A stretch of DNA of 64,000 bases, taken from the NCBI RefSeq assembly GCF_000175935.2, contig NC_014837.1, positions 1,364,001 through 1,428,000 of the forward strand, written 5' to 3'. Numbering within the stretch: the first letter of the stretch is position 1; each line of letters opens with the position of its first letter. This document shows positions 3,393 through 15,290 of this stretch, in pieces. The notes beneath the pieces are model-generated. The model made no database searches. It saw only the letters and a program-made list of their open reading frames with translations, and was not told where the DNA came from. Source of the stretch: Pantoea sp. At-9b. GTDB taxonomy: Bacteria > Pseudomonadota > Gammaproteobacteria > Enterobacterales > Enterobacteriaceae. The position numbers and the translations under genes were made by a program.

Positions 3393-3910
3393 CCCTCTCC
3401 CGCCAGCGGGAGAGGGGACTGATCGCGCCCGGATTGGCATATTGCACATTTCCCTCTCCCATCTTGCGGGAGAGGGGACTGATCGCGCCCGGATTGGCAT
3501 ATTGCACATCTCCCTCTCCCGTCTTGCGGGAGAGGGGGACTGGTCGCGCCCGGATTGGCATATTGCACATCCCCCTCTCCCGTCTTGCGGGAGAGGGGGA
3601 CTGATCGCGCCCGGATTGGCATATTGCACATTTCCCTCTCCCATCTTGCGGGAGAGGGGACTGATCGCGCCCGGATTGGCATATTGCACATTTCCCTCTC
3701 CCATCTTGCGGGAAAGGGGACTGATCGCGCCCGGATTGGCATATTGCACATTTCCCTCTCCCGTCTTGCGGGAAAGGGGACTGATCGCGCCCGGATTGGC
3801 ATATTGCACATTTCCCTCTCCCATCTTGCGGGAAAGGGGACTGATCGCGCCCGGATTGGCACATTGCACATCTCCCTCTCCCGTCTTGCGGGAGAGGGCC
3901 GGGGTGAGGG
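3381..3910. repeat. Tandem array of nine hairpins with eight near-identical spacers
   Basis: CCCTCTCCC ... GGGAGAGGG hairpins begin at 3393, 3452, 3512, 3573, 3634, 3694, 3754, 3814 and 3874, a period of 59-61 bases. Eight spacers of about 35 bases are almost identical (they contain GATCGCGCCCGGATTGGCA). The loop of each hairpin after the first is RTCTTGC, and three later copies have GGGAAAGGG. Outer arms CCCTCACCC (3381-3389) and GGGGTGAGGG (3901-3910) bracket the whole array. It looks like one intergenic palindromic element whose inner part was amplified. Open reading frames of 60-210 codons on both strands here are by-products of a period divisible by three and were not called. Confidence 0.95.
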
Positions 3911-3941: not shown

Positions 3942-4913
3942 TCAGTGCACTCCCTCCGCCTCCGGGATCGCCAGCGCCTGCATAAACAACTTAATAATCG
4001 GATTTATTTTGCGGCCCTTCTTCATCATCAGACAGAAGGGATTCTCCATACGAATCGATTCATCTCCCAATTCACACAGCTGACCCCGCGCAATAAACGC
4101 AGCGGCATAGTGTTCGGGTAAATAACCAATAAAATGGCCGGTGAGGATCAGCATGGCGACCGACTCAACCTGAACCGCTTGCACACCGCTGTCGTGGAGT
4201 GGAATAACCCGACGTGCATCACGTGGCGTAACATATAAGTGATTTATTACTTTTTGTTCGCGTAATAATTCCAGGGGTATTTTATGGTCAGCACTGCCGG
4301 AATAAAGTGGGTGGCCCACTGAACAATAAAGTTTTGAGTATTCTTTATATAACGGGAAGTAATCGAAATCACTTTTCATTTCATAAACTGGCGCGACACC
4401 ACAATGAAAACGGCCTTCACTAATACCGCGTTCAATATCGTCTAATTGTGCCGTTTGCAGACGGATTTGTACCTTTGGCGCATTTTGGTGCAACTGTTGC
4501 ACCGCGCTGGTAACAGGCGATTGTGGGTCGGAAATGGTGTTATCCACGACGCAAATGGCGATGTCACCCAATAGCTCGTTGCGGCTGTTGTGCAGCCGTT
4601 CGCGGAACAAATTGAGCGAGACAAACAGCTCCAGCGTCGCCTGATAGACGTTAACGCCGTACTGCGTCAGTTCAAAGCCTTCGCGCCCGCGGCTACACAG
4701 GGTCATGCCGAGACGAATTTCCAGATCGGAAACCTGCTTACTGATTGCCGCCAGACCAATATTCAACTCGTGGCTGGCGGCGGTTAATCCACCGGCCTCC
4801 ACCACGCATTTAAATACGCGCAGCAATTTTAAATCGATATTACTTAATGCCAGCACCGCATTATCGTTGCGATTGATTGCATTGTTTCCAGACTGGGAAA
4901 CTTTACTTTCCAT
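3942..4913 (-). CDS. LysR-family regulator, left end of the lyase/ABC locus
   Basis: A 323-residue LysR-type protein. After a 25-residue extension, the winged helix occupies about residues 26-85 (LKLLRVFKCVVEAGGLTAAS, then ISKQVSDLEIRLGMTLCSR). The rest is a substrate-binding-like effector domain ending near TGHFIGYLPEHYAAAF. It is transcribed divergently from the lyase operon, the usual arrangement for a LysR regulator and its target. It is related to the second LysR protein at 14394-15290: both have LCxRGRxGFxLT in the HTH-linker part and G(H/R)FIGYLPEHYA in the effector domain. The effector is unknown. Confidence 0.9.
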   Translation of the reverse strand: MESKVSQSGNNAINRNDNAVLALSNIDLKLLRVFKCVVEAGGLTAASHELNIGLAAISKQVSDLEIRLGMTLCSRGREGFELTQYGVNVYQATLELFVSLNLFRERLHNSRNELLGDIAICVVDNTISDPQSPVTSAVQQLHQNAPKVQIRLQTAQLDDIERGISEGRFHCGVAPVYEMKSDFDYFPLYKEYSKLYCSVGHPLYSGSADHKIPLELLREQKVINHLYVTPRDARRVIPLHDSGVQAVQVESVAMLILTGHFIGYLPEHYAAAFIARGQLCELGDESIRMENPFCLMMKKGRKINPIIKLFMQALAIPEAEGVH

Positions 4914-4988
4914 CTTTGCTATTCAACTCCGGAATTATTGCGGTGAAAGTGTAGTGAACCTGAAATGTGCCGTATTTACCAGCGTAGC

Positions 4989-5007
4989 AATAAAATAAGT
5001 TTTTATT
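4989..5007. promoter_or_regulatory. Candidate LysR operator in the divergent promoter
   Basis: An AATAAAA / TTTTATT inverted repeat with a five-base centre lies 54-72 bases before the lyase ATG, inside the 147-base divergent region. AT-rich dyads of this kind are typical LysR sites, but A/T runs arise easily by chance. Confidence 0.35.
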
Positions 5008-5060
5008 ATCGCTGACACCTAATTCATCTCGCTATTGATTATTGGTAAGGGGAAAATTGC

Positions 5061-6488
5061 ATGTCTGAGAAAGCAGAACTGTTATGGGGTGCGCGTTTTA
5101 AAGCGGCACCGGCGGCCAGTTTAACCGCGCTGTCACGTAGCCCGGATTACTACTTTGCTCTGGCGCCTTACGATTTTGCTGGCTGTCGTGCCCATGCTCG
5201 TGAACTGGCGCGTGGAGAACTGCTAAGCGACGCGGAACTGAGCACCATGCTGGCGGCGATTGATGAGCTGGATGCTGAGTTCCGCGCCGGTCAGCTGCAT
5301 CCGATTGCGGCAGATGAAGATGTGCATACCTTTGTGGAACGCGCGCTCACCGAACGTTTAGGGCCGCTGGGTGGCAAGCTGCGTGCCGGTCGTTCGCGTA
5401 ACGATCAGACCGTCAATGACCTGCGTCTCTACCTGCGCGATAACGGCCGCAAGGTGGTTACTGCGCTGCTCGGACTGCAACAGGCGCTGGTCGAGCAGGC
5501 AGCACAGCATACCGAGAGTGTGGCACCAGGCTTTACCCATCTGCAACAGGCTCAGCCGATTGTGTTTGGACATCAGTTGCTGGCGCATGCGCAATCCTTT
5601 GCGCGTGATATCGAACGTATGCAGGACTGGGATCGCCGCAGCGCGCGTTGCCCACTCGGTGCGGCCGCGATGGCCGGTTCCGCCATTGCCCGCCAGCCAG
5701 AGCTGGCAGCGGCTGATTTGGCCTATCTCGCGCCGTGCGAGAACTCGATTGATGCGGTTGCCAGCCGTGATTACGCCGCCGAATTTCTGTTCGTTACCAG
5801 CATGATTGGCATCAACCTGTCACGCCTGTGTGAAGAGGTGTGCATGTGGGCATCGCGTCAGTTCCGCTGGGTCGAGCTGCACGACAGCTACGCCACCGGC
5901 AGCTCAATCATGCCGCAGAAAAAGAACCCGGATATTGCCGAGCTGACGCGCGGTCGTTCTGGTCGCCTGGTCGGCAACCTGACGGCGCTGCTCACCACCA
6001 TGAAAGCGATGCCGCTCTCCTATAACCGCGACCTGAGCGACGACAAACGTAACGTGATTGATGCCGTTGACACCCTGCTGCTGGTGCTGCCTGCGATGGC
6101 CGGGATGATGGCGACGCTGAAATTCAACACCGAGGTGATGCGTGAGCAGGCACCGGATGGCTTCACGTTGGCGACCGAAGTGGCCGACTGGCTGGCCATG
6201 CGCGGTGTGCCGTTCCGTGAAGCCCATGAAATCACCGGTCAGCTGGTGCAGCTGTGCGAGCAGCAAGGTTGTGGCCTGTCCGATCTCAGCGATGCGCAGC
6301 TACAGGCGGTGGATAGCCGTCTGACCGCCGAGGTACGTGGTGCATTGACGCTGGAGTCAGCGCTGGCAGTACGTAACGGTTACGGCGGCACAGCGCCTGA
6401 GCGTGTACGCGAGCAACTGGCACGTTTGCAAACCCTGATGCAGGCCCAGCAGCAGTGGGCTGACGACTACGCTGGCCCGCGCGCCTGA
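5061..6488 (+). CDS. ArgH-like C-N lyase (aspartase/fumarase superfamily)
   Basis: The 475-residue protein belongs to the superfamily that eliminates fumarate from N-substituted aspartates. Motifs include KLRAGRSRNDQTVNDLR (about residues 109-125), PGFTHLQQAQP (general acid/base His region), and the signature TGSSIMPQKKNPDIAELTRG near residue 280. It differs from housekeeping ArgH at CPLGAAAMAGSAIAR, where ArgH has a GSGALAG-type loop, so substrate specificity is probably altered. It opens an operon with an amino-acid importer and MmgE/PrpD, which fits catabolism rather than arginine synthesis. EDDS lyase and iminodisuccinate-cleaving lyases are known relatives. A free-standing second argininosuccinate lyase is the alternative. 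Confidence 0.85.
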   Translation: MSEKAELLWGARFKAAPAASLTALSRSPDYYFALAPYDFAGCRAHARELARGELLSDAELSTMLAAIDELDAEFRAGQLHPIAADEDVHTFVERALTERLGPLGGKLRAGRSRNDQTVNDLRLYLRDNGRKVVTALLGLQQALVEQAAQHTESVAPGFTHLQQAQPIVFGHQLLAHAQSFARDIERMQDWDRRSARCPLGAAAMAGSAIARQPELAAADLAYLAPCENSIDAVASRDYAAEFLFVTSMIGINLSRLCEEVCMWASRQFRWVELHDSYATGSSIMPQKKNPDIAELTRGRSGRLVGNLTALLTTMKAMPLSYNRDLSDDKRNVIDAVDTLLLVLPAMAGMMATLKFNTEVMREQAPDGFTLATEVADWLAMRGVPFREAHEITGQLVQLCEQQGCGLSDLSDAQLQAVDSRLTAEVRGALTLESALAVRNGYGGTAPERVREQLARLQTLMQAQQQWADDYAGPRA

Positions 6489-6498
6489 GGAGACGCTG

Positions 6499-7371
6499 AT
6501 GTCGCAATCGACCACCACGGCAACGAACAACGCCAGCAGTCAGCCGCATTACGATCTTGATCGTTATCAGGTGGTGCCGCGTCGTTATTACGGCCGCATC
6601 ACCGCCTCGGTAGTGATCCTGATCCTGCTGGCGTTGCTGGTTAATGCCTTTGCGCACGGCAATATCGAATGGTCGTTTGTCGGCCAGTTCTTTACCGCCA
6701 AGGCGATTCTCGACGGGGTGGTCAACACCCTGATTATGTCAGTTCTGGCAATGGGCTTCGGCGTGTTGTTCGGGGTGATCACCGCCATCATGTACATGTC
6801 GCCCAACCCGGTGCTGCACTACATCGCGGTCGGTTACGCCTGGATCTTCCGTGGTACGCCGCTGATTCTGCAACTGCTGCTGTGGTTCAACCTGGCGTTG
6901 GTGTTTCCCACCATCAGCATTCCCGGCGTGTTCAGTGTGCAAACCGTCACCGTCATGACGCCGTTCCTCGCCGCGCTGCTCGGCCTGAGCATCAACCAGG
7001 GGGCATACACCTCCGAAGTGGTGCGTGCCGGTCTGCTGTCGGTGGATACCGGTCAGTACGAGGCGGCTAAAGCGATCGGCATGCCACGTTTGCAGGCATT
7101 GCAGCGCATCATCCTGCCGCAGGCGATGCGCGTCATCCTGCCGCCGGTAGGCAACGAATTTATCAGCATGATCAAGACCACCAGTCTGGCGAGCATGATT
7201 CAGTACTCGGAACTGCTCTACAACACCCAGAACATCTACTTTGCCAACGCGCGCGTGATGGAACTGCTGTTCGTGGCCGGTATTTGGTACTTGATCGTGG
7301 TGACGGTGCTGTCCTTCGGCCAGAGCCAGCTGGAACGCTACTTCTCACGCGGCCATCGCCGTCGTCACTAA
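6499..7371 (+). CDS. Polar amino-acid ABC transporter permease
   Basis: A HisM/GlnP-type permease of 290 residues with a long cytoplasmic N-terminal extension (about 40 residues, including a tract of Thr, Asn and Ser) before the first helix. The coupling loop EAAKAIGMPRLQALQRIILP lies near residue 190. A strong Shine-Dalgarno (GAGGAG) precedes the ATG, 10 bases after the lyase stop. Only one permease gene is present, so the transporter is presumably built on a permease homodimer. Substrate class, polar amino acid, follows from family membership. Confidence 0.9.
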   Translation: MSQSTTTATNNASSQPHYDLDRYQVVPRRYYGRITASVVILILLALLVNAFAHGNIEWSFVGQFFTAKAILDGVVNTLIMSVLAMGFGVLFGVITAIMYMSPNPVLHYIAVGYAWIFRGTPLILQLLLWFNLALVFPTISIPGVFSVQTVTVMTPFLAALLGLSINQGAYTSEVVRAGLLSVDTGQYEAAKAIGMPRLQALQRIILPQAMRVILPPVGNEFISMIKTTSLASMIQYSELLYNTQNIYFANARVMELLFVAGIWYLIVVTVLSFGQSQLERYFSRGHRRRH

Positions 7372-7383
7372 GGAGTGAGAGAG

Positions 7384-8148
7384 ATGAGAAACATCGTGCG
7401 CGCCGTCAAGGTGAACAAATATTTCGACCAGTTCCACGCATTGAAGGACGTCAGCCTTGAGGTGAATTACGGCGAGGTGATGTGCATTCTCGGGCCATCC
7501 GGCTCCGGCAAAAGCACCTTCCTGCGCTGCATTAACCAGCTGGAAAAGGTCGATCAGGGCGGTATCTGGGTCGACAACGAACTGGCGGGTTACCGCATCA
7601 ATGGCAACAAACTTTATCCGCTGAGCGACAAGCAGATTGCCCGCCAGCGTTTGCAAACCGGCATGGTGTTCCAGCGCTTCAACTTGTTCCCGCATAAAAC
7701 CGCGTTGGAAAACATCATCGAAGGGCCGTGTCGTGTGCTGTTGCGCCCGAAACGTGAAGCCAGCGAAGAGGCGATGGCGTTGCTGGATCGCGTCGGTCTG
7801 GCACACAAGGCGCATGACTACCCTCAGTCATTGTCCGGCGGTCAGCAGCAGCGAGTGGCGATTGCCCGCGCGCTGGCGATGAAACCGAAATTAATGCTGT
7901 TTGATGAACCCACCTCGGCACTCGATCCGGAAATGGTCGGTGAAGTGCTGGCGGTGATGCGTCAACTGGCAAAAGAAGGCACCACCATGCTGGTCGTTAC
8001 TCACGAGATGGGCTTTGCCCGCGAAGTGGCGAACCAGGTGGTGTTTATGGACGAGGGACGCATTATCGAGCAGGGCGCACCGGAAGATATTCTGTTGAAC
8101 CCGCAAAACCCACGGATGAAAAACTTTATCAACGCGATTCTTCTTTAA
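7384..8148 (+). CDS. Polar amino-acid ABC transporter ATPase
   Basis: The 254-residue ATPase has Walker [10 protein letters not shown] (about residue 37), Q-loop [12 protein letters not shown], signature [16 protein letters not shown], Walker [15 protein letters not shown] and the switch HEMGFA. It matches GlnQ/HisP-type subunits. I chose ATG 7384 because AGGAG lies eight bases upstream; a GTG at 7375 would overlap that Shine-Dalgarno. It lies between permease and binding protein in the same operon. Confidence 0.92.
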
Positions 8149-8166
8149 CTGACCGGGGTGATTTGA

Positions 8167-8988
8167 ATGAAAAAACTGTTATTGAGCGCCGTAAGTGCCG
8201 CGCTGTTGCTGCAATCGTCTGCCTGGGCCGACATCGCTGTGCCAGCGTCGATCAAAGAGAAAGGTCTGACCGTGGCGATCATGCCGAACTATCCGCCGAT
8301 GGATTTTAAAGATCCGGCCAGCAACCAGTTGACCGGTGTCGATTACGATCTCGGTATGGCGATTGGTCAGAAGCTGGGCGTCAAGATCAACTGGCAGGAG
8401 ATCGCGTTTGAACAGATGGTCAACGCGGTCGTCACCAAACGCGTTGATATGGTGATGTCCGGTATGACCGACACCAAAGAGCGTCAGAAGGTGGTCAACT
8501 TTATCGACTACTTCAAAACCGGCCCGCAGTTCTACACCTTATCGGCCCGCAGTGACATCAACAGTGCGATGGATCTGTGCGGCAAGCGCGTCGGCACCAG
8601 CCGTCGCACCACCTTCCCGCAAGAGATTGCTAACTGGAGCAAAGAGCACTGCGAATCTGCCGGTAAACCGGCCATCGTAGTGGTGGGCGCAGAAGGCACC
8701 GCGGATGCCCGTACTCAGCTGCGTCAGCGTCGTCTGGATGCGGCAGTGCAGGGCAGTGAAACCCTGCCGTACATCATGGACCTGGAAAAAGGCACCTTTA
8801 AACCGCTCGATAAAGCGTTCTCCTTCCAGTACACCGGCATGGCGATCGGCAAAGATGCCTCGGATCTGACCACCGCCGTGCAGGGCGCGCTGGATGCGAT
8901 GATCGCCGATGGGACTTACCAGAAGATCCTCAGCAAATGGGGTCTGAGCGACAACGGCGTGGCAAAAGCTACGGTAAACCAGGGCTAA
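8167..8988 (+). CDS. Periplasmic polar amino-acid-binding protein
   Basis: A 273-residue SBP_bac_3 protein. The signal peptide (MKKLLLSAVSAALLLQSSAWA) is followed by the mature start around residue 22. The core includes LTVAIMPNYPPMDF, GVDYDLGMAIGQKLGV and MSGMTDTKERQKVVNFIDY. Two cysteines (in DLCGKRVG and KEHCESAG) are spaced as in family members with a disulfide. The ligand should be a polar or charged amino-acid-like compound; the neighbouring lyase suggests an N-substituted amino acid, which is inference. Confidence 0.9.
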   Translation: MKKLLLSAVSAALLLQSSAWADIAVPASIKEKGLTVAIMPNYPPMDFKDPASNQLTGVDYDLGMAIGQKLGVKINWQEIAFEQMVNAVVTKRVDMVMSGMTDTKERQKVVNFIDYFKTGPQFYTLSARSDINSAMDLCGKRVGTSRRTTFPQEIANWSKEHCESAGKPAIVVVGAEGTADARTQLRQRRLDAAVQGSETLPYIMDLEKGTFKPLDKAFSFQYTGMAIGKDASDLTTAVQGALDAMIADGTYQKILSKWGLSDNGVAKATVNQG

Positions 8989-9001
8989 CAGGAGACGGCT
9001 G

Positions 9002-9847
9002 ATGCAACAACCGGGCGCAGTGCGCTGGCCACAGGGCAAGCGCGGCTGTATGGCGCTGGCGTTTGACCTTGATGGTCCCACCGGCGATGCCATGTTGAAT
9101 GGCAGCCTGTGGTCAACGCCAGAGTATTTCACCTTTGGCGCTTACGGGCCGTACCGCGCGCTCGGGCGTTTGCTCGATCTGCTGCGGGCGTTTCAACTGC
9201 CCGCCACCTTCTTTGTTCCCGCGTGGGTGGTGGAGCAGTGGCCGCAGCAGTGTCAGGCGATTATTGAACAGGGCCACGAAGTGGCCTATCACGGCTACCG
9301 TCATGAATCATTCTGGGCGATCTCGCCTGAAGAACAGCGGGCGGTGATGACCAAATCGGCGGCGATCTTTCAGCAATATCTCGGCATTACCGCCTGTGGT
9401 TTCCGCACGCCGTCAGGCGACTGGCATGCGGAAACGCCACAGATCCTGCGTGAAGCTGGGGTGATCTACTCCAGCAGCATGCGTGGCGACGACCGTCCAT
9501 ATAGCATCCCGGTGGCCGGGCATACGCCGCTGGTTGAGATCCCTGGCAAATGGGAGATGGATGATTACGCCTCATTGGCCTATACGCGCCAGCCGGACTT
9601 CCCGAAAGGCGGCGATCGTATTGCCAGCTATGCCCACACCCGCGATAACTGGCAGCGTGAATTCGATGGCGCGATGGATGAAGGCTTGTGCCTGACCACG
9701 CTGTTCCATCCGAAAATTTCCGGCCAGCCCGGGCGTTTACTGCTGCTGGAGCAGCTGTTTGAACATATGACGGCGCGTGATGATGTGTGGTTTGCGCGCT
9801 GCGATGCGGTGGCGCAGTGGTACTTGCAGGAGCAGCAGCATGACTGA
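9002..9847 (+). CDS. NodB-fold amidohydrolase/deacetylase, complete metal site
   Basis: A 281-residue protein of the polysaccharide-deacetylase fold, without signal peptide, so cytoplasmic. Motifs in order: FDLDGPTGD (about residue 21, metal Asp), EVAYHGYRHE (HxxxH metal ligands), GFRTPSGDW, a conserved SSSMRGDDRPY, and LFHPKISGQPGR (final His). Cytoplasmic members of this branch (PuuE allantoinase, cyclic imide hydrolases, HP0310) hydrolyse cyclic or linear amides rather than polysaccharide. In this operon a role in opening or deacylating the imported compound is likely. It overlaps the next gene, a paralogue, by eight bases. Confidence 0.85.
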   Translation: MQQPGAVRWPQGKRGCMALAFDLDGPTGDAMLNGSLWSTPEYFTFGAYGPYRALGRLLDLLRAFQLPATFFVPAWVVEQWPQQCQAIIEQGHEVAYHGYRHESFWAISPEEQRAVMTKSAAIFQQYLGITACGFRTPSGDWHAETPQILREAGVIYSSSMRGDDRPYSIPVAGHTPLVEIPGKWEMDDYASLAYTRQPDFPKGGDRIASYAHTRDNWQREFDGAMDEGLCLTTLFHPKISGQPGRLLLLEQLFEHMTARDDVWFARCDAVAQWYLQEQQHD

Positions 9848-10718
9848 ATCTTCCCGCTGGCCGCTGGGCTTCCAGTCGGCGGCGATCATCACCATCGATT
9901 TTAACGATATTCACGGCATTCTGACGCAGGCTCCGGCCGTGGCGGGACGCGACAAAACCCTGTCGGTATGGCGCTATGGCACACTACGCGGCGTCGATCG
10001 TCTGTTGAACCTGCTGGCGGAAAAGCAGCTAACAGCCAGTTGGTGCTTACCGGCGGTGGTGGCGGAGGAGCAGCCAGAGCTGGTGCAACGCATTATCGCT
10101 GCCGGCCATGAAATTGCCTGTAGTGGCGATCGCCATGAAGATTTCTCCACGCTGACCCTGGAACAACAAATTGCCAGCATCACGCGGGGTTGCGACAAAC
10201 TGGCGCAGGTAACCGGTCAACCGATTCAGGGTTTCCGCACCCCGGCAGGGCAGTGGAAACCGGGCCTCGCCCAGGCGTTGATTGAGCAGGGTATTCGCTG
10301 GTCCTCCAGCTGGCGCGGTGATGATTTGCCCTATTTCCACCCCGGTACCCGGCTGGTGGAACTGCCGATGCACTACACGCTGGAAGACGAACCCTATTTT
10401 GCCTTTAACCTCAGCCCGGCGATTCCACCGGGGCAGTCGCGTATTGCCCCTTACGGTGAAACCCTCGACAACCTGACCCAGGATTTTCGCGGCTTCCATC
10501 GCTTTGGCTTGTGTTATTTGCTGCGTCTGCATCCGGAAATCATCGGCACTGCCGGGCGTATCGGTCTGCTGCGATCGCTGCTCGACACGCTGCAACAACA
10601 CAACGTGTGGATCGCTACCGCGCAGCAGGTGGCGGCGCATTGGCAGAGCCAGCCCGACAACGGCCCGGATCATCCGGCTGAAGTCTTCACCCGCGTCATC
10701 GGAGAGATCAATGCTTAA
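9840..10718 (+). CDS. NodB-fold paralogue with a degenerate metal-binding motif
   Basis: A 292-residue paralogue of the preceding protein with matching motifs in the same order: TIDFND, GFRTPAGQW, SSSWRGDDLPY and LRLHPEIIGTAGR. The key metal motif reads CSGDRHE where the upstream protein has YHGYRHE, so the first histidine of HxxxH is a serine. It may be an inactive subunit that pairs with its neighbour, or may bind metal differently. The start at ATG 9840 overlaps the upstream stop, which favours coupled synthesis of the two proteins. The stop overlaps the MmgE/PrpD start by eight bases. Confidence 0.8.
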   Translation: MTESSRWPLGFQSAAIITIDFNDIHGILTQAPAVAGRDKTLSVWRYGTLRGVDRLLNLLAEKQLTASWCLPAVVAEEQPELVQRIIAAGHEIACSGDRHEDFSTLTLEQQIASITRGCDKLAQVTGQPIQGFRTPAGQWKPGLAQALIEQGIRWSSSWRGDDLPYFHPGTRLVELPMHYTLEDEPYFAFNLSPAIPPGQSRIAPYGETLDNLTQDFRGFHRFGLCYLLRLHPEIIGTAGRIGLLRSLLDTLQQHNVWIATAQQVAAHWQSQPDNGPDHPAEVFTRVIGEINA

Positions 10719-12069
10719 TCAGCTGGCGAGTTTTATCGCTGAAACCCGGTTTGACCAACTGCCCACCGCGCTGGTGGAGCAGGCCAAACGTCACTTCCTC
10801 GATACCCTGGGTGCCTCGCTGGCGGGCAGTGATAGCCCGATCTGGCGCGAGTGCCTGGCGCTGGTCGAGGCCGAGGGCGGCTATGCTCAGGCGCAGGTGT
10901 GGGGCAGCGCACAACAGGTCAATGCGCGTCAGGCGGCGTGGCTGAACGGCGTTGCGGCGCACATGTACGAGCTGGATGATACCGGCGGCTGCGATCATTC
11001 CGGCGCGGTGGTGATCCCGGCGCTGCTGGCGGTGTTGCCGTTGGCACCACAGCCGGTGAGTGGTCAGGCGCTGTTAACCGCGATGGTGATCGGTTATGAC
11101 ATCGGTCGCCGGGTGCTGGAAGCCTGCGGTGGTTATTCAGCGCACAACGGTGCGGGCTGGCACTCCACCGCCAGCTGTGGCGTTTTCGGCGCGGCGGCGG
11201 CAGTCTGTTCGTTGCTGCAACTCAACGCGGCGCAAAGCGCCTCGGCGTTGGGCATCGCCGCCAGTTTCAGTGGCGGGTTGTGGGGCTTTATTCACGACGG
11301 CTCGCACACCAAAAAGCTGCACGCCGCACGTGCGGCGGAAGGTGGCGTGCAGGCAGCGCTGCTGGCTCAGCGAGGTATCAGCGGTCCTTCGGCAGTCTTT
11401 GAGCCACGCTGGGGTGGTTTCCTGCAAACGCTGGCGGCGGACACTCAGCAGCCCGAGGCGTTAGTGGCCGATCTGGGCGTGGTGTGGAAACTGGCACGCT
11501 GTTCGATCAAACCCTATGCCGCCTGTCGTGGCACGCATTCCGCGATTGATGCGCTGGGTATCCTGTTGCAACAGCAACCGCTGGCAACCGCGGACATTGC
11601 ACGCATTGTGGTGGGGGTGAATCCGTTCCTGCTGGAGATGTGCGGCACTCGTGATGTCGCCAGCCTGGCGGCCGCGCAGATGAGTTTGCCTTACGCGCTA
11701 ACGGCGCGCGCGCTGTATGGTGCGGCGGACCTCGCCAGCTATGATGACGCGAAACGCCTGCACCCTGATGCGGAAGCGCTGATGGCGCGGGTGGAGTTGG
11801 TGATCGATCCTGAACAAAGCCGGGATGCCGAACCCTGGGTACGACTGGAGACGGTGCAGGGCGCACAGTGGCAGCAGCATGTGGCGGTGCCCTCGGGTGC
11901 GCCGGCTAACCCACTGAGCCTGGACGCATTGCTGGAGAAATACCGTAGCCTCGCGGCGCGCGTACTGCCAGAAGCGCAGGTGGTGCAGTTGGAAACGGTG
12001 TGCATGGCGCTGGATGACATCCGCGATGTGAGTCAGATTACGGCGTTGCTGGCAGTCAAACACCATTAA
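10711..12069 (+). CDS. MmgE/PrpD-family protein (iminodisuccinate-epimerase-like)
   Basis: A 452-residue MmgE/PrpD protein. Visible family features are LDTLGASLAGSD near residue 32, the helical core with AAHMYELDDTGGCDHSGAVV near residue 85, and the segment GWHSTASCGVFGAAAA, then DGSHTKKLHAARAAEGGVQA. The family includes 2-methylcitrate dehydratase and the iminodisuccinate epimerase of Agrobacterium. Coming after an ArgH-like lyase in the same operon, an epimerase that presents the right stereoisomer of an N-substituted aspartate to the lyase is an attractive reading; a dehydratase role cannot be excluded. It is the last gene of the left operon. Confidence 0.8.
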   Translation: MLNQLASFIAETRFDQLPTALVEQAKRHFLDTLGASLAGSDSPIWRECLALVEAEGGYAQAQVWGSAQQVNARQAAWLNGVAAHMYELDDTGGCDHSGAVVIPALLAVLPLAPQPVSGQALLTAMVIGYDIGRRVLEACGGYSAHNGAGWHSTASCGVFGAAAAVCSLLQLNAAQSASALGIAASFSGGLWGFIHDGSHTKKLHAARAAEGGVQAALLAQRGISGPSAVFEPRWGGFLQTLAADTQQPEALVADLGVVWKLARCSIKPYAACRGTHSAIDALGILLQQQPLATADIARIVVGVNPFLLEMCGTRDVASLAAAQMSLPYALTARALYGAADLASYDDAKRLHPDAEALMARVELVIDPEQSRDAEPWVRLETVQGAQWQQHVAVPSGAPANPLSLDALLEKYRSLAARVLPEAQVVQLETVCMALDDIRDVSQITALLAVKHH

Positions 12070-12073
12070 CTTT

Positions 12074-12134
12074 GCGCGATGAATCGCGCCGCTACACATA
12101 TTTGTACCTCTCGTAGCGGCGCGATTTATCGCGC
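12074..12134. repeat. Dispersed palindromic repeat, inverted pair (copy A)
   Basis: Two copies of the 22-base repeat, 12074-12095 and 12113-12134, face each other around 17 bases and can fold into one long hairpin. Core sequence GCGCGATTTATCGCGC with a GTAGCG flank; the left copy has GATGAATC in the centre. The pair fills the gap between two convergent operons and may act as a bidirectional transcript end. Confidence 0.9.
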
Positions 12135-12136
12135 GG

Positions 12137-13219
12137 TTACCGTGTTGCCAGCTTCTCAACGCGTGCGATTGCCGCCAGTAAACGATCTTCCGTCACCGTT
12201 TCCGCCATATTCGCCATATCCGGCGCATGCACCGACTCACGTACAATCAGCTCCAGCTCGGCTGTGTCCAGATCGGCAATTTCAGTCAACGTTAGCGGTA
12301 CACCGCAATCACGCGCCAGACGCATCTCCGCCAGCACTTCGTCATCGCTACGATGTTCCAGCGCCAGCAGGCACAGGTTACCAAAGCCCACCAACAGGCC
12401 ATGGCCAAACTCGCGTGTCTTATCGCAGAAGGTAAAGCCTTCGTAGATGGCATGCGATGCCGCTGCGTGCGCACCGTTGCTCATCAGCGAGGTTAAACCG
12501 GCCCAGGTGAAAATCGCGTCCAGCACCTGATCCAACGAGCTGCCGCTCTCACCGCGCAGCACGGCGGCATAAGCGGCCGGGCCGTGTTCAGCAATCACGT
12601 CGTAACAAATCTTGCTGTGCGCCAGTGATGACAGCGCGTTACCTTCTTTGGCCGGATGGCGGGTGCTGACGGCGCGGAATTCGTACCATTTCGCCAGCGT
12701 ATCGCCCAGCCCGGCGGCCAGCCAGCGCGGCGGCGCTTTTGCCAGCAGCGCGCTGTCAATCACCACGGCTGCCGGGGCTTGCGGTAGCGGGAAAATATCA
12801 AAGAAGTTGCCGTTATCATCGTAGCGAATACTCAGCGGCGTCACGGCCGAGCAAGTCGCCGCAATGGTGGGGATGGTCACTACCGGCAGGCCAAGCTGTG
12901 CCGCTACCGCTTTACAGGTATCCAGCGATTTGCCGCCGCCGACACCGATAATCACCTCCGCCTGCAATTCGGTGGCGATGGCTGCCAGCCGATTGATGTG
13001 ATTGATCGAGGTTTCGCCGCCAAACCACTCCTGCGCCACCAGCGCCACATCGGCCGCCAGTAGCTGAGCGCGCACCTGCGCTTCTACCGCGTGCAGAGCC
13101 TGATGGCCGCCGATCAGCAGCGCACGCTGCCCGAGACTGGCGCAGATTGCACCCAACTGATTAATTACCCCCGCACCGCGCAATACGCGGGCCGGGAACA
13201 CCAGATTCATTTGTGTCAT
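12137..13219 (-). CDS. Iron-type alcohol dehydrogenase, YbdH/HcxA-like
   Basis: A 360-residue GldA/YbdH-type dehydrogenase. It shows an NAD-binding GVGGGKSLDTCK motif at about residues 89-100, then TIPTIAATCSAVTPLS as in E. coli YbdH (HcxA, 2-oxoacid reductase), and a metal-site region GLGDTLAKWYE and HAAASHAIYEG. In iron-type dehydrogenases these histidines and aspartates hold Zn or Fe. The ATG at 13219 overlaps the stop of the upstream ureohydrolase gene as ATGA; the 13 codons before it belong to that gene's end. Reduction or oxidation of a 2-oxo/2-hydroxy acid is the probable reaction; the substrate is open. Confidence 0.82.
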   Translation of the reverse strand: MTQMNLVFPARVLRGAGVINQLGAICASLGQRALLIGGHQALHAVEAQVRAQLLAADVALVAQEWFGGETSINHINRLAAIATELQAEVIIGVGGGKSLDTCKAVAAQLGLPVVTIPTIAATCSAVTPLSIRYDDNGNFFDIFPLPQAPAAVVIDSALLAKAPPRWLAAGLGDTLAKWYEFRAVSTRHPAKEGNALSSLAHSKICYDVIAEHGPAAYAAVLRGESGSSLDQVLDAIFTWAGLTSLMSNGAHAAASHAIYEGFTFCDKTREFGHGLLVGFGNLCLLALEHRSDDEVLAEMRLARDCGVPLTLTEIADLDTAELELIVRESVHAPDMANMAETVTEDRLLAAIARVEKLATR

Positions 13220-14175
13220 TGCTTCTTCTCTGTGTAACGGACGCCGGGCAACACGCACAGCATCTCATAAAGGATATTGGCCGCCAGCTGTGAGGTCATG
13301 CCGCTTTGGTCATACGGCGGTGACACTTCCACCAGATCGCCACCCACCAGATTCAAACCGCGACAGCCACGCACGATCTCCAGCCCCTGCATCGAGGTCA
13401 GTCCTCCCACTTCCGGCGTACCGGTGCCGGGAGCCCAGGCGGGATCAAAGCTGTCGATATCGTAAGAAAGGTACACCGGGCCGCTACCGATCCGCGTGCG
13501 CACCTCGGCCATCAACGGCGTCAGCGAGCGATGCCAGCACTGCTCGGCGGGGATCAGCTGGAAGCCCTGATCGACCCCCCATTGAAAGTCGTCTGCGGCG
13601 TAGCCCTGCGCACGTTGCCCAATCTGCACCACGCGCTGACAATCCAGCAAGCCTTCTTCTACCGCCCGGCGAAACGTGGTGCCGTGGGCAATTTTTTCAC
13701 CAAACATCTCATCATTGGTGTCGGTATGGGCATCCACGTGGATCAGCCCCATCGGGCCGTGTTTTTTTGCCAGCGCACGCAGAATCGGCAGCGTCAGAGT
13801 GTGGTCACCGCCCAGCGTCAGCGGAATCAGCGGCCATTGGTTTAGATCGCTGTAAAATTCTTCAATGATATCGACCGATTTCAGCAGGCTGTAGGTATTG
13901 ATCGGCACATCGCCGAGATCGCCGACGCGCAGCGAATCAAACGGCGCTGCCCCGGTCGCCATATTATAAGGACGGATCATCACCGAATCGGCGCGGATGG
14001 CGCGCGGCCCGTAGCGGGTGCCGCTGCGCTGTGAGGTGCCGATATCCAGCGGGATACCGATAAACGCCACATCCAGATCGGCGGGGGACTCACTGGCCGG
14101 TAAACGCATCATGGTGCCGCGTCCGGCGAAACGCGGCATCTCATTGCCGCCCTGCGGTTGGGGAAAATGGGTCAT
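13216..14175 (-). CDS. Ureohydrolase, 4-guanidinobutyrase (GbuA)-like
   Basis: A 319-residue agmatinase/arginase-fold enzyme with all manganese ligands visible: GGDHT, DAHTDTND, and SYDIDSFDPAWAPGTGTPEV. The stretches QGGNEMPRFAG near the N-terminus, ADSVMIRPYNMATGAAPFDS and FGEKIAHGTTFRRAVEEGLL strongly resemble Pseudomonas GbuA, which cleaves 4-guanidinobutyrate to GABA and urea. Differences such as DAHTD (for the usual DAHAD) and DIDSFD (for DIDGID) may signal a shifted substrate. It is the first gene of the right operon, with AAGGAG seven bases before the ATG, and is divergent from a LysR gene. Confidence 0.85.
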   Translation of the reverse strand: MTHFPQPQGGNEMPRFAGRGTMMRLPASESPADLDVAFIGIPLDIGTSQRSGTRYGPRAIRADSVMIRPYNMATGAAPFDSLRVGDLGDVPINTYSLLKSVDIIEEFYSDLNQWPLIPLTLGGDHTLTLPILRALAKKHGPMGLIHVDAHTDTNDEMFGEKIAHGTTFRRAVEEGLLDCQRVVQIGQRAQGYAADDFQWGVDQGFQLIPAEQCWHRSLTPLMAEVRTRIGSGPVYLSYDIDSFDPAWAPGTGTPEVGGLTSMQGLEIVRGCRGLNLVGGDLVEVSPPYDQSGMTSQLAANILYEMLCVLPGVRYTEKKQ

Positions 14176-14310
14176 GACCGGCTCCTTACATTGAACAGAC
14201 GGACATCATTACCTGACGGAGCGGCGGGAAAAATCCTTGACAGCAGATAATCACTTCAGAGATTACTTAACTTTTACCGGTAATTTCTTAAGAAAAAGGG
14301 AGAGACTAAC

Positions 14311-14382
14311 GTAGCGGCGCGATTTATCGCGCAGGCTTTTCCGCCAGCGCGCACAGGATTGCGCGATAAATCGCGCCGCTAC
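14311..14382. repeat. Dispersed palindromic repeat, inverted pair (copy B) against a ribosome binding site
   Basis: Repeats at 14311-14332 and 14361-14382 face each other around 28 bases. The pair lies in the divergent region between the ureohydrolase and LysR genes, and the second copy ends directly at a GGA (14383-14385) that serves as the Shine-Dalgarno of the LysR gene. A transcript starting upstream would carry this hairpin at the ribosome binding site. Confidence 0.9.
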
Positions 14383-14393
14383 GGAATAACATT

Positions 14394-15290
14394 ATGCAAC
14401 CGTTACCCAATCTCAAACTGCTCCAGGTCTTCGCCAGCGTGGTAGAAAACCAGGGCTATTCGCGCGCGCAGCAGGCACTGAACATGACCACCCCGGCCAT
14501 CAGCGCCTATATGAGCGAACTGGAAACCCAACTGGGGTTTATTCTCTGCCAGCGGGGGCGTGGCGGCTTTACCCTGACCAGTAAAGGGGAACAGTTTTAT
14601 CGTTACAGCCAGCAAATGTTGGCGACGCTGGCGGGCTGGCAGGAACAGGTGGAGACGCTGAAAAGCGCGCAGGGTGGCACCTTTTCCCTCGGCGTGGTGG
14701 ATGCCACCGTTACCGACAGCACGCTGGCTTTGCCCGCGGCCATCGCCCGTTTTAATCAACGTTTTCCGGCGGTGTTTTTCAATCTCAGCGTGCGCGATCC
14801 CAATGAACTGCAACAACAATTGCTGGAAGATCGCCTCGATTTGGCCATCGGTCATTTTCCCCTGCGCGCCAGCAATCTGGTGACCATTCCGCTGTACGAA
14901 GAACAACATTGGTTATATTGCAGCCCGGATCATGCGCTGGCGCAGGGCGCGCCCGATGTGCGTACCGTGCAACAAACCGGGATGGTGACGCGGCGCTACT
15001 GGAACCAGCAGGAACTGAACAAACGCGGCTTCCGCCAGACCAATGCCTCGGTGGAAAGTATCGAGGCACAGTTGACCTTGATCCTTAGCGGACGGTTTAT
15101 CGGTTATTTGCCGGAACACTACGCACGCAGTTGGGAACAGCAGGGGGCGTTGTGTCGCTTGCTGCCGCAGCATTTTCACTTCCGCGCGCCGTTCTCCTTT
15201 GCTTTCCGTCGTGGGAGGGCGCGTGAAACGCTGATCCGTGCGATGCGAGATATTCTGAATCCCGCGCGAAAAAATAGCAGCGAAAGCTGA
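14394..15290 (+). CDS. LysR-family regulator, right end of the locus
   Basis: A 298-residue LysR protein with the HTH at about residues 5-65 (LKLLQVFASVVENQGYSRAQ, then PAISAYMSELETQLGFILCQ) and an effector domain ending near LSGRFIGYLPEHYARSW. It is paralogous to the LysR protein at the left end and is divergent from the ureohydrolase/dehydrogenase operon, so each half of the locus appears to have its own related regulator. The Shine-Dalgarno is weak (GGA) and abuts a palindromic repeat. Confidence 0.9.
   Translation: MQPLPNLKLLQVFASVVENQGYSRAQQALNMTTPAISAYMSELETQLGFILCQRGRGGFTLTSKGEQFYRYSQQMLATLAGWQEQVETLKSAQGGTFSLGVVDATVTDSTLALPAAIARFNQRFPAVFFNLSVRDPNELQQQLLEDRLDLAIGHFPLRASNLVTIPLYEEQHWLYCSPDHALAQGAPDVRTVQQTGMVTRRYWNQQELNKRGFRQTNASVESIEAQLTLILSGRFIGYLPEHYARSWEQQGALCRLLPQHFHFRAPFSFAFRRGRARETLIRAMRDILNPARKNSSES

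Follow-up and report, generated by a model that had tools for sequence, protein, structure and literature searches.

The iminodisuccinate pathway of Agrobacterium tumefaciens BY6 joins a C–N lyase to an epimerase of the MmgE/PrpD family, as set out in the available text of PMC7347537, and among proteins of the NodB fold PuuE acts on a small cyclic amide and HpPgdA has been argued to bind a small molecule (PMC3084791 and PMC10967932, both in excerpt). In this study, we analysed a 64,000-nucleotide stretch of the genome of Pantoea sp. At-9b (contig NC_014837.1, positions 1,364,001 to 1,428,000; the whole stretch is called the window below), in which eleven genes at positions 3942–15290 form two convergent units, each starting beside a LysR gene. 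The left unit likewise pairs an MmgE/PrpD protein with a C–N lyase, but its MmgE/PrpD protein lacks the Tyr base of the iminodisuccinate epimerase, two NodB proteins are added and the lyase is derived from argininosuccinate lyase (ArgH). The right unit encodes a ureohydrolase of the GbuA type. Taken together, the data lead us to favour, tentatively, a reading in which the left unit degrades an N-(1,2-dicarboxyethyl) guanidino acid without a free alpha-amine to fumarate and, probably, 4-guanidinobutyrate. The genes are the following:

3942..4913, minus strand: LysR1, a LysR regulator (Pfam HTH_1 and LysR_substrate), divergent from the left unit
5061..6488, plus strand: ArgH-derived C–N lyase (TIGR00838, 517.5 bits against a cut-off of 279.5), amine-side pocket altered
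6499..7371, plus strand: single permease of a polar amino-acid-type ATP-binding cassette (ABC) importer (PF00528, TIGR01726)
7375..8148, plus strand: importer ATPase (PF00005; best model GlnQ, 313.5 bits, under the cut-off of 379)
8167..8988, plus strand: periplasmic binding protein (SBP_bac_3)
9002..9847, plus strand: NodB1, a NodB-fold hydrolase with intact metal motifs (PF01522)
9840..10718, plus strand: NodB2, a NodB paralog with a damaged metal site (PF01522)
10711..12069, plus strand: MmgE/PrpD-family protein, called PrpD here (PF03972 and PF19305)
12137..13219, minus strand: iron-type alcohol dehydrogenase, Fe-ADH (PF00465), the start being taken as the ATG at 13219
13216..14175, minus strand: GbuA-type ureohydrolase (3nio, 524 bits)
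14394..15290, plus strand: LysR2, a LysR regulator similar to LysR1, divergent from the ureohydrolase gene

All eleven genes are open frames at these positions. The family scan covered ten of them and LysR2 was placed by its 31% identity to LysR1 over most of its length, so the gene-by-gene description given in the original prediction, which had been made from the sequence alone, holds. From the lyase gene to the PrpD gene, the left unit has gaps of 3–18 base pairs (bp) and two overlaps of 8 bp, which suggests that it is one operon; 67 bp separate the convergent PrpD and Fe-ADH genes. The genome is 6.3 Mb in size and its closest named relatives are Pantoea, the best match to PrpD (95% identity) coming from Pantoea sp. 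AS-PWVM4.

The left unit is conserved as a module. Sixty-four loci were collected from genome contigs by similarity to PrpD, so counts over them measure conservation of the PrpD neighbourhood and not the frequency of the module. The complete left unit (lyase, permease, ATPase, binding protein, NodB1, NodB2 and PrpD) was present in 56 of the 64 loci, at identity cut-offs chosen after the list had been viewed, and in 48 of these 56 the lyase, permease, ATPase, NodB1, NodB2 and PrpD genes stand in the same order on one strand; in the other eight the genes are split into two blocks or their order is shifted. A split module, NodB1-NodB2-PrpD-binding protein and lyase-permease-ATPase-binding protein, was seen in Paraburkholderia and Burkholderia (L045, L048, L050, L051, L052 and L065). 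The complete loci belong chiefly to Enterobacterales and Burkholderiales, together with metagenome-assembled genomes of Tolumonas (L044) and Rhodospirillales (L064). As for the eight incomplete loci, L032 and L053 are short contigs, L034 and L037 keep NodB1-NodB2-PrpD with no lyase in the flanks, and L049, L054, L062 and L068 are alphaproteobacterial, L049 and L062 keeping the lyase, importer and PrpD plus a single distant NodB protein. The recurrence of seven genes in 56 of 64 loci, six of them in conserved order in 48 of 56, puts the association beyond chance. The view, already put forward in the original prediction, that the left unit is a dedicated import-and-degradation module is supported, its lyase being derived from ArgH. 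At the level of the family, a NodB1 ortholog (at least 74% identity) occurs in 6 of 129 genomes, one per genus. In genome G305 (C1:4059477-4060296) NodB1 is in two pieces, with intact copies present elsewhere.

The lyase belongs to the same family as ArgH, has the same fumarate-side catalytic residues and passes the TIGR00838 cut-off, but it is without D33 and Q328 and sits in a transport and degradation operon. Since a second, better-scoring ArgH (694 bits, TIGR00838) is encoded elsewhere in the genome, the window lyase need not serve arginine biosynthesis. The alignment set 54 module lyases, the window lyase and many close Pantoea sequences among them, against 34 ArgHs. Besides the enzyme of this genome and four of solved structure, the ArgHs were 29 taken from 60 genomes sampled across the phylum; these 29 are best-scoring matches, among which divergent ArgHs are under-represented. 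Residues are numbered as in the duck protein (delta-crystallin/ArgH), and n = 53 applies at positions where one module sequence is truncated at its N terminus. R115, N116, T161 and H162 are kept in 53 of 53 module lyases and S283, K289 and N291 in 54 of 54; we take these to be the catalytic residues on the fumarate side. Asp33, by contrast, is present in all 34 ArgHs and in none of 53 module lyases (Tyr in 29, Phe in 24), and Gln328 in all 34 ArgHs and in none of 54 module lyases (Ser in 25, Ala in 25, Ile in 3, Gly in 1). Glu332, found in 33 of 34 ArgHs, reads Arg in 29 module lyases, Ile in 18, Asn in 4, Ser in 2 and Trp in 1. D33 and Q328 presumably take part in binding the amine side, Gln328 being an argininosuccinate contact in delta-crystallin; a search of the open-licence literature found no statement of the roles of D33, of Q328 or of the binding-protein Asp considered below. 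Because the fumarate-side residues are kept while D33 and Q328 are lost, the enzyme is best read as a repurposed ArgH, the amine partner of which would be other than arginine or would be bound differently. The same loss weakens the case for an ordinary second ArgH, which the module lyase probably is not.

In the tree, the module lyases group in a single clade (support 0.80) next to the ArgH of Mycobacterium tuberculosis. Among solved structures, this ArgH matches the window lyase with 497 bits and ethylenediaminedisuccinate (EDDS) lyase with 203 bits, which rules out EDDS lyase as the closest solved relative; no comparison with argininosuccinate was found in the available text of the EDDS lyase paper (PMC12363623). 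The KLHTARSRNDQV motif, named as important for argininosuccinate binding in the accessible part of PMC7601404, does not separate the window lyase from M. tuberculosis ArgH, because the two read almost identically there (KLRAGRSRNDQ and RLRAGRSRNDQ, respectively).

Were argininosuccinate, or a cyclic anhydride of it, the substrate, the NodB pair would open the ring, PrpD would act as an epimerase and the lyase would be an ordinary ArgH yielding arginine. A TIGR00838 score far above the cut-off is what this explanation leads one to expect, and so is the complete astCADBE operon that follows the module on the same strand in one locus (L025, discussed below); however, D33 and Q328, each found in 34 of 34 ArgHs, are gone from the module lyases, the binding protein has lost the Asp that we take to contact an alpha-amine, and the linked ureohydrolases are like GbuA or GpuA and not like arginases. 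We therefore regard argininosuccinate itself as an improbable substrate.

The binding protein points to the kind of ligand that is imported. In 43 binding proteins from 39 sources including the window (255–330 residues, more than 45% identity, second copies in a locus counted), no Asp is found in the column which, in this family, we believe to contact the alpha-amine of the ligand; the Asp expected of a Lys/Arg/Orn-type binding protein is thus absent in 43 of 43 against the one reference used, AncQR, where a one-residue gap leaves it uncertain whether the replacement is Gln or Gly, Asp being absent regardless. The carboxylate-binding Arg is kept in all 43, and all 43 have an extra Arg (Arg146). 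The missing Asp together with the extra Arg suggests that the ligand is anionic and has no free alpha-amine. A second cluster, on another replicon of the genome (L113, G000 C5:236000-252000), was observed to encode a pair of NodB-type hydrolases that both have the metal motifs, together with a related binding protein in which the Asp is kept, an isoaspartyl-dipeptidase-like protein (under the family cut-off) and a polyamine-type importer.

NodB1 has Asp-x-Asp (motif 1) and His-x3-His (motif 2) complete in 43 of 43 sequences and so carries the motifs of a CE4/NodB metal-dependent deacylase, which NodB2 does not. In NodB2, the first Asp of motif 1 is kept in 49 of 49 sequences and the second in none (Asn in 46, His in 3), while motif 2 has its first His in none and its second in 24 of 49 (roles of the motifs as described in the available text of PMC10967932). 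With the second Asp and the first His gone throughout, NodB2 is probably a catalytically degenerate partner subunit of NodB1. The earlier description of two NodB-type hydrolases is correct as to the family of both and the motifs of NodB1; part of the metal site of NodB2 has been lost.

The nearest solved structure to NodB1 is 3rxz, followed by the small-molecule proteins HpPgdA and PuuE. PuuE lacks the metal motifs that NodB1 keeps, and the module adds the degenerate partner NodB2. Identity with PuuE allantoinase was rejected, given these metal residues and TIGR03212 scores of 82.7 and 79.5 bits against a cut-off of 424.6. Weak as it is, the match of the NodB proteins to the allantoinase model would suit a hydantoin-like substrate, or a carbamoyl or amidino aspartate, that is opened by NodB and then cleaved by the lyase to fumarate and a small leaving group (urea, guanidine or ammonia), and so would the aromatic residue at the D33 position and a locus (L054) in which a PrpD relative (46%), with no lyase seen, stands beside hydantoinase, carbamoylase and agmatinase-like genes. 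We consider such a substrate quite improbable: Q328 has been replaced mostly by smaller residues (only the three Ile fall outside Ser, Ala and Gly), so the pocket is not filled, and the pathway would yield no substrate for GbuA.

The closest solved relatives of PrpD are the IRG1/cis-aconitate decarboxylases (124 bits) and iminodisuccinate epimerase (2hp0, 113 bits). The epimerase has been proposed to use H99 and Y145 as its two bases, and Bacillus subtilis IRG1 has both residues (PMC7347537, excerpt); their equivalents in the module proteins were located through the alignment with that IRG1. The equivalent of H99 is kept in 54 of 54 module PrpDs, whereas that of Y145 is Asn in all 54, and nearby the active-site Arg of IRG1 (R100) is Cys in all 54. 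With these two substitutions the epimerase function of PrpD is uncertain, and the original assignment as an iminodisuccinate-type epimerase is weakened.

This bears directly on another explanation, the degradation of an iminodisuccinate-type aminopolycarboxylate, in which the lyase would give fumarate and an amino acid such as aspartate, PrpD would handle other stereoisomers, the NodB pair would first remove an amide and the GbuA unit would be an unrelated neighbour. Here a C–N lyase and an MmgE/PrpD epimerase would act together as in the described pathway (PMC7347537, excerpt), the extra Arg in the binding protein and in many lyases would suit an anionic ligand, and the nearby occurrence of a ureohydrolase in only 17 of 64 loci would be unsurprising. 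Nevertheless, one of the two epimerase bases is Asn in every module PrpD, the window lyase matches EDDS lyase far less well than M. tuberculosis ArgH (203 against 497 bits), and the links to ureohydrolases and to the LysR subfamily are left without explanation. On balance we think this explanation unlikely.

The links to ureohydrolases start from the right unit. With 73% identity over 308 positions to the 4-guanidinobutyrase GbuA of P. aeruginosa, and with 3nio as its closest solved structure, the ureohydrolase is a GbuA ortholog; it keeps the metal-ligand motifs as well as the GbuA-type Met, which we take to be a specificity residue. Given this identity and the kept motifs, its substrate is likely 4-guanidinobutyrate, as the original label of a GbuA-like ureohydrolase implied. 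The window gene differs from P. aeruginosa GbuA, with which it has sequence, motifs and Met in common, in being followed by Fe-ADH and joined to the left unit; in Pseudomonas, too, GbuA presumably lies beside a LysR gene.

Fe-ADH had been described as YbdH-like. It fits the glycerol dehydrogenase subfamily PRK09423 (262.6 bits, cut-off 336) better than PRK10586 (170 bits, cut-off 429), which we take to be YbdH (HcxA), and it reaches neither cut-off; the YbdH assignment was dropped. Orthologs of at least 59% identity are present in all 6 family genomes that have the left unit and in 6 of the 123 that lack it; loosening the cut-off to about 52% would add five genomes to the latter. In Pantoea, all 22 genomes with the left unit have Fe-ADH, as do 6 of the 39 without it. 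Fe-ADH adjoins the module in three arrangements: that of Pantoea and Erwinia, just downstream of PrpD (L027-L029 and L115), and upstream of LysR1 (L114). Orthologs are also found in hut-type clusters without the module. In L116, L117, L118, L120 and L124, Fe-ADH orthologs lie near hutH- or hutU-like genes, some with a HisC-like aminotransferase, these genes being named mostly from N-termini.

The association between the two units was assessed in 61 Pantoea genomes, the left unit being called by NodB1 (E<1e-80) and GbuA by E<1e-120. GbuA is present in 20 of the 22 genomes with the left unit and in none of the 39 without it (Fisher p = 4e-14, a value that ignores shared ancestry); one of the 20 matches (G443) covers residues 1-250 only. 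The original proposal of a single pathway turned on the two halves occurring together in related genomes, and in Pantoea they do. The association is not obligate: in Mangrovibacter and Burkholderiales loci the flanks examined around the left unit contain no gene of the right unit, GbuA lies at a distance in genomes G358 and G370 and is paired with LysR2 in the absence of the left unit in G357, and the P. dispersa and P. wallisii loci (L016 and L017) keep Fe-ADH and LysR2 without GbuA. The 17 loci with a ureohydrolase (more than 40% identity) comprise 15 of the Pantoea/Erwinia group and the two loci L064 and L049. In these two the gene shares the strand of the module and lies downstream of it, behind a second binding-protein gene in L064 and behind a NodB gene in L049. 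These two enzymes are 51 and 48% identical to GpuA, respectively, and 42% to GbuA, and the closest solved structure to that of L064 is GpuA (288 bits; GbuA, 254 bits).

The regulators provide a further connection. Within the genome LysR1 is matched best by LysR2 (137 bits) and next by the gene at C1:2148130 (98 bits), after which scores drop to 44 bits, in agreement with the earlier statement that LysR1 and LysR2 belong to the same subfamily; both of these closest paralogs flank ureohydrolase genes. The divergent arrangement of a LysR2-like gene and a GbuA ortholog, with genes of an importer close by, recurs in two other loci: L126, from G357, in which the left unit was not found, and L123, from G358, which carries its left unit on a separate contig. 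The predicted guanidino connection thus draws on the co-inheritance of GbuA in Pantoea, the ureohydrolases beside the module in L064 and L049 and the position of this LysR subfamily beside ureohydrolases. Locus L158 (G000 C1:2141000-2160000), at 7020-13442, has a third LysR of the subfamily beside one operon that encodes a ureohydrolase, an amino-acid-type importer and a second ureohydrolase, and a convergent flavin adenine dinucleotide (FAD) oxidase gene. Between a GNAT gene and LysR1, at 3406-3898 of the window, lies a 60-bp tandem repeat (8.2 copies, 96% match).

The ArgH ancestry of the lyase, the loss of contacts to an alpha-amine, the carboxylate-rich site of the binding protein and the ureohydrolases for guanidino acids together favour an argininosuccinate-like substrate without a free alpha-amine, which would be cleaved to fumarate and an omega-guanidino acid such as 4-guanidinobutyrate. 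Such a substrate would be a carboxylate-rich N-substituted aspartate with its alpha-amine absent or blocked, most likely an N-(1,2-dicarboxyethyl) guanidino acid built on 4-guanidinobutyrate instead of arginine and arriving partly in cyclic or acylated form. The ABC importer would take it up; the metal-dependent NodB1 and its degenerate partner NodB2 would hydrolyse an amide or re-open a cyclised iminohydantoin form; the PrpD-family enzyme would correct the stereochemistry of the succinyl part or isomerise it; the ArgH-derived lyase would eliminate fumarate and free the guanidino acid; and GbuA of the right unit would convert 4-guanidinobutyrate to gamma-aminobutyrate and urea. What the sequence itself gives are the families, the kept and lost residues, the gene order and the co-inheritance, and it is from these that we infer both the order of steps and the substrate.

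Several observations weigh against this route by way of a guanidino acid. The two units are neighbours in Pantoea, so their co-occurrence there would look the same if a single island had been gained or lost. In the family sample, only three of the six genomes with the left unit have GbuA (at least 72% identity), against 2 of the 123 without it, and in two of these three (G358 and G370) it is far from the left unit; 47 of the 64 loci have no ureohydrolase above 40% identity in their flanks, some being on short contigs, and none was found in the flanks examined of the left units of Mangrovibacter, Prodigiosinella and Burkholderiales. The divergent promoters of LysR1 and LysR2 each contain conserved blocks, but no shared operator was recognised when the aligned intergenic regions were compared without motif statistics. 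The L113 paralog of the binding protein (43% identical), which keeps the Asp, has the extra Arg as well, so this Arg is not module-specific, and the change of Glu332 to Arg in 29 of 54 lyases would equally suit a leaving group of more anionic character, an amino dicarboxylate for example. In Prodigiosinella (L025, 11466-17593), the left unit is immediately followed by the astCADBE arginine operon, an arrangement that would suit arginine as the product; this argument is weakened by L116, where ast-like genes (named from N-termini, the family search covering the aminotransferase and an LldD-like gene) also follow a hut-type cluster with Fe-ADH. Finally, we know of no compound of this kind that is a common natural nutrient.

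The individual parts of the locus are known families, and what is new is their combination and the altered lyase, within a type of pathway that uses a C–N lyase and an epimerase. The open-licence literature yielded no paper combining ArgH, polysaccharide deacetylase and MmgE, and none combining PrpD, polysaccharide deacetylase and an amino acid ABC transporter, in keeping with the original remark that no described pathway with this gene set was known. It is possible, though somewhat doubtful, that the locus represents an undescribed route for N-(1,2-dicarboxyethyl) guanidino acids or their cyclic forms, in which an ArgH put to a new use, a NodB hydrolase paired with a pseudoenzyme and a PrpD lacking the second epimerase base feed the catabolism of 4-guanidinobutyrate.

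If true, an essential biosynthetic enzyme would have been recruited to catabolism with a clear residue signature, and genes of plant-associated bacteria that pass the ArgH family cut-off may be misnamed. The function of small-molecule NodB-fold hydrolases and of their pseudoenzyme partners would become directly testable. The route would also imply that a class of natural guanidino-succinyl compounds exists in the plant environment, and thus a new class of nutrients.

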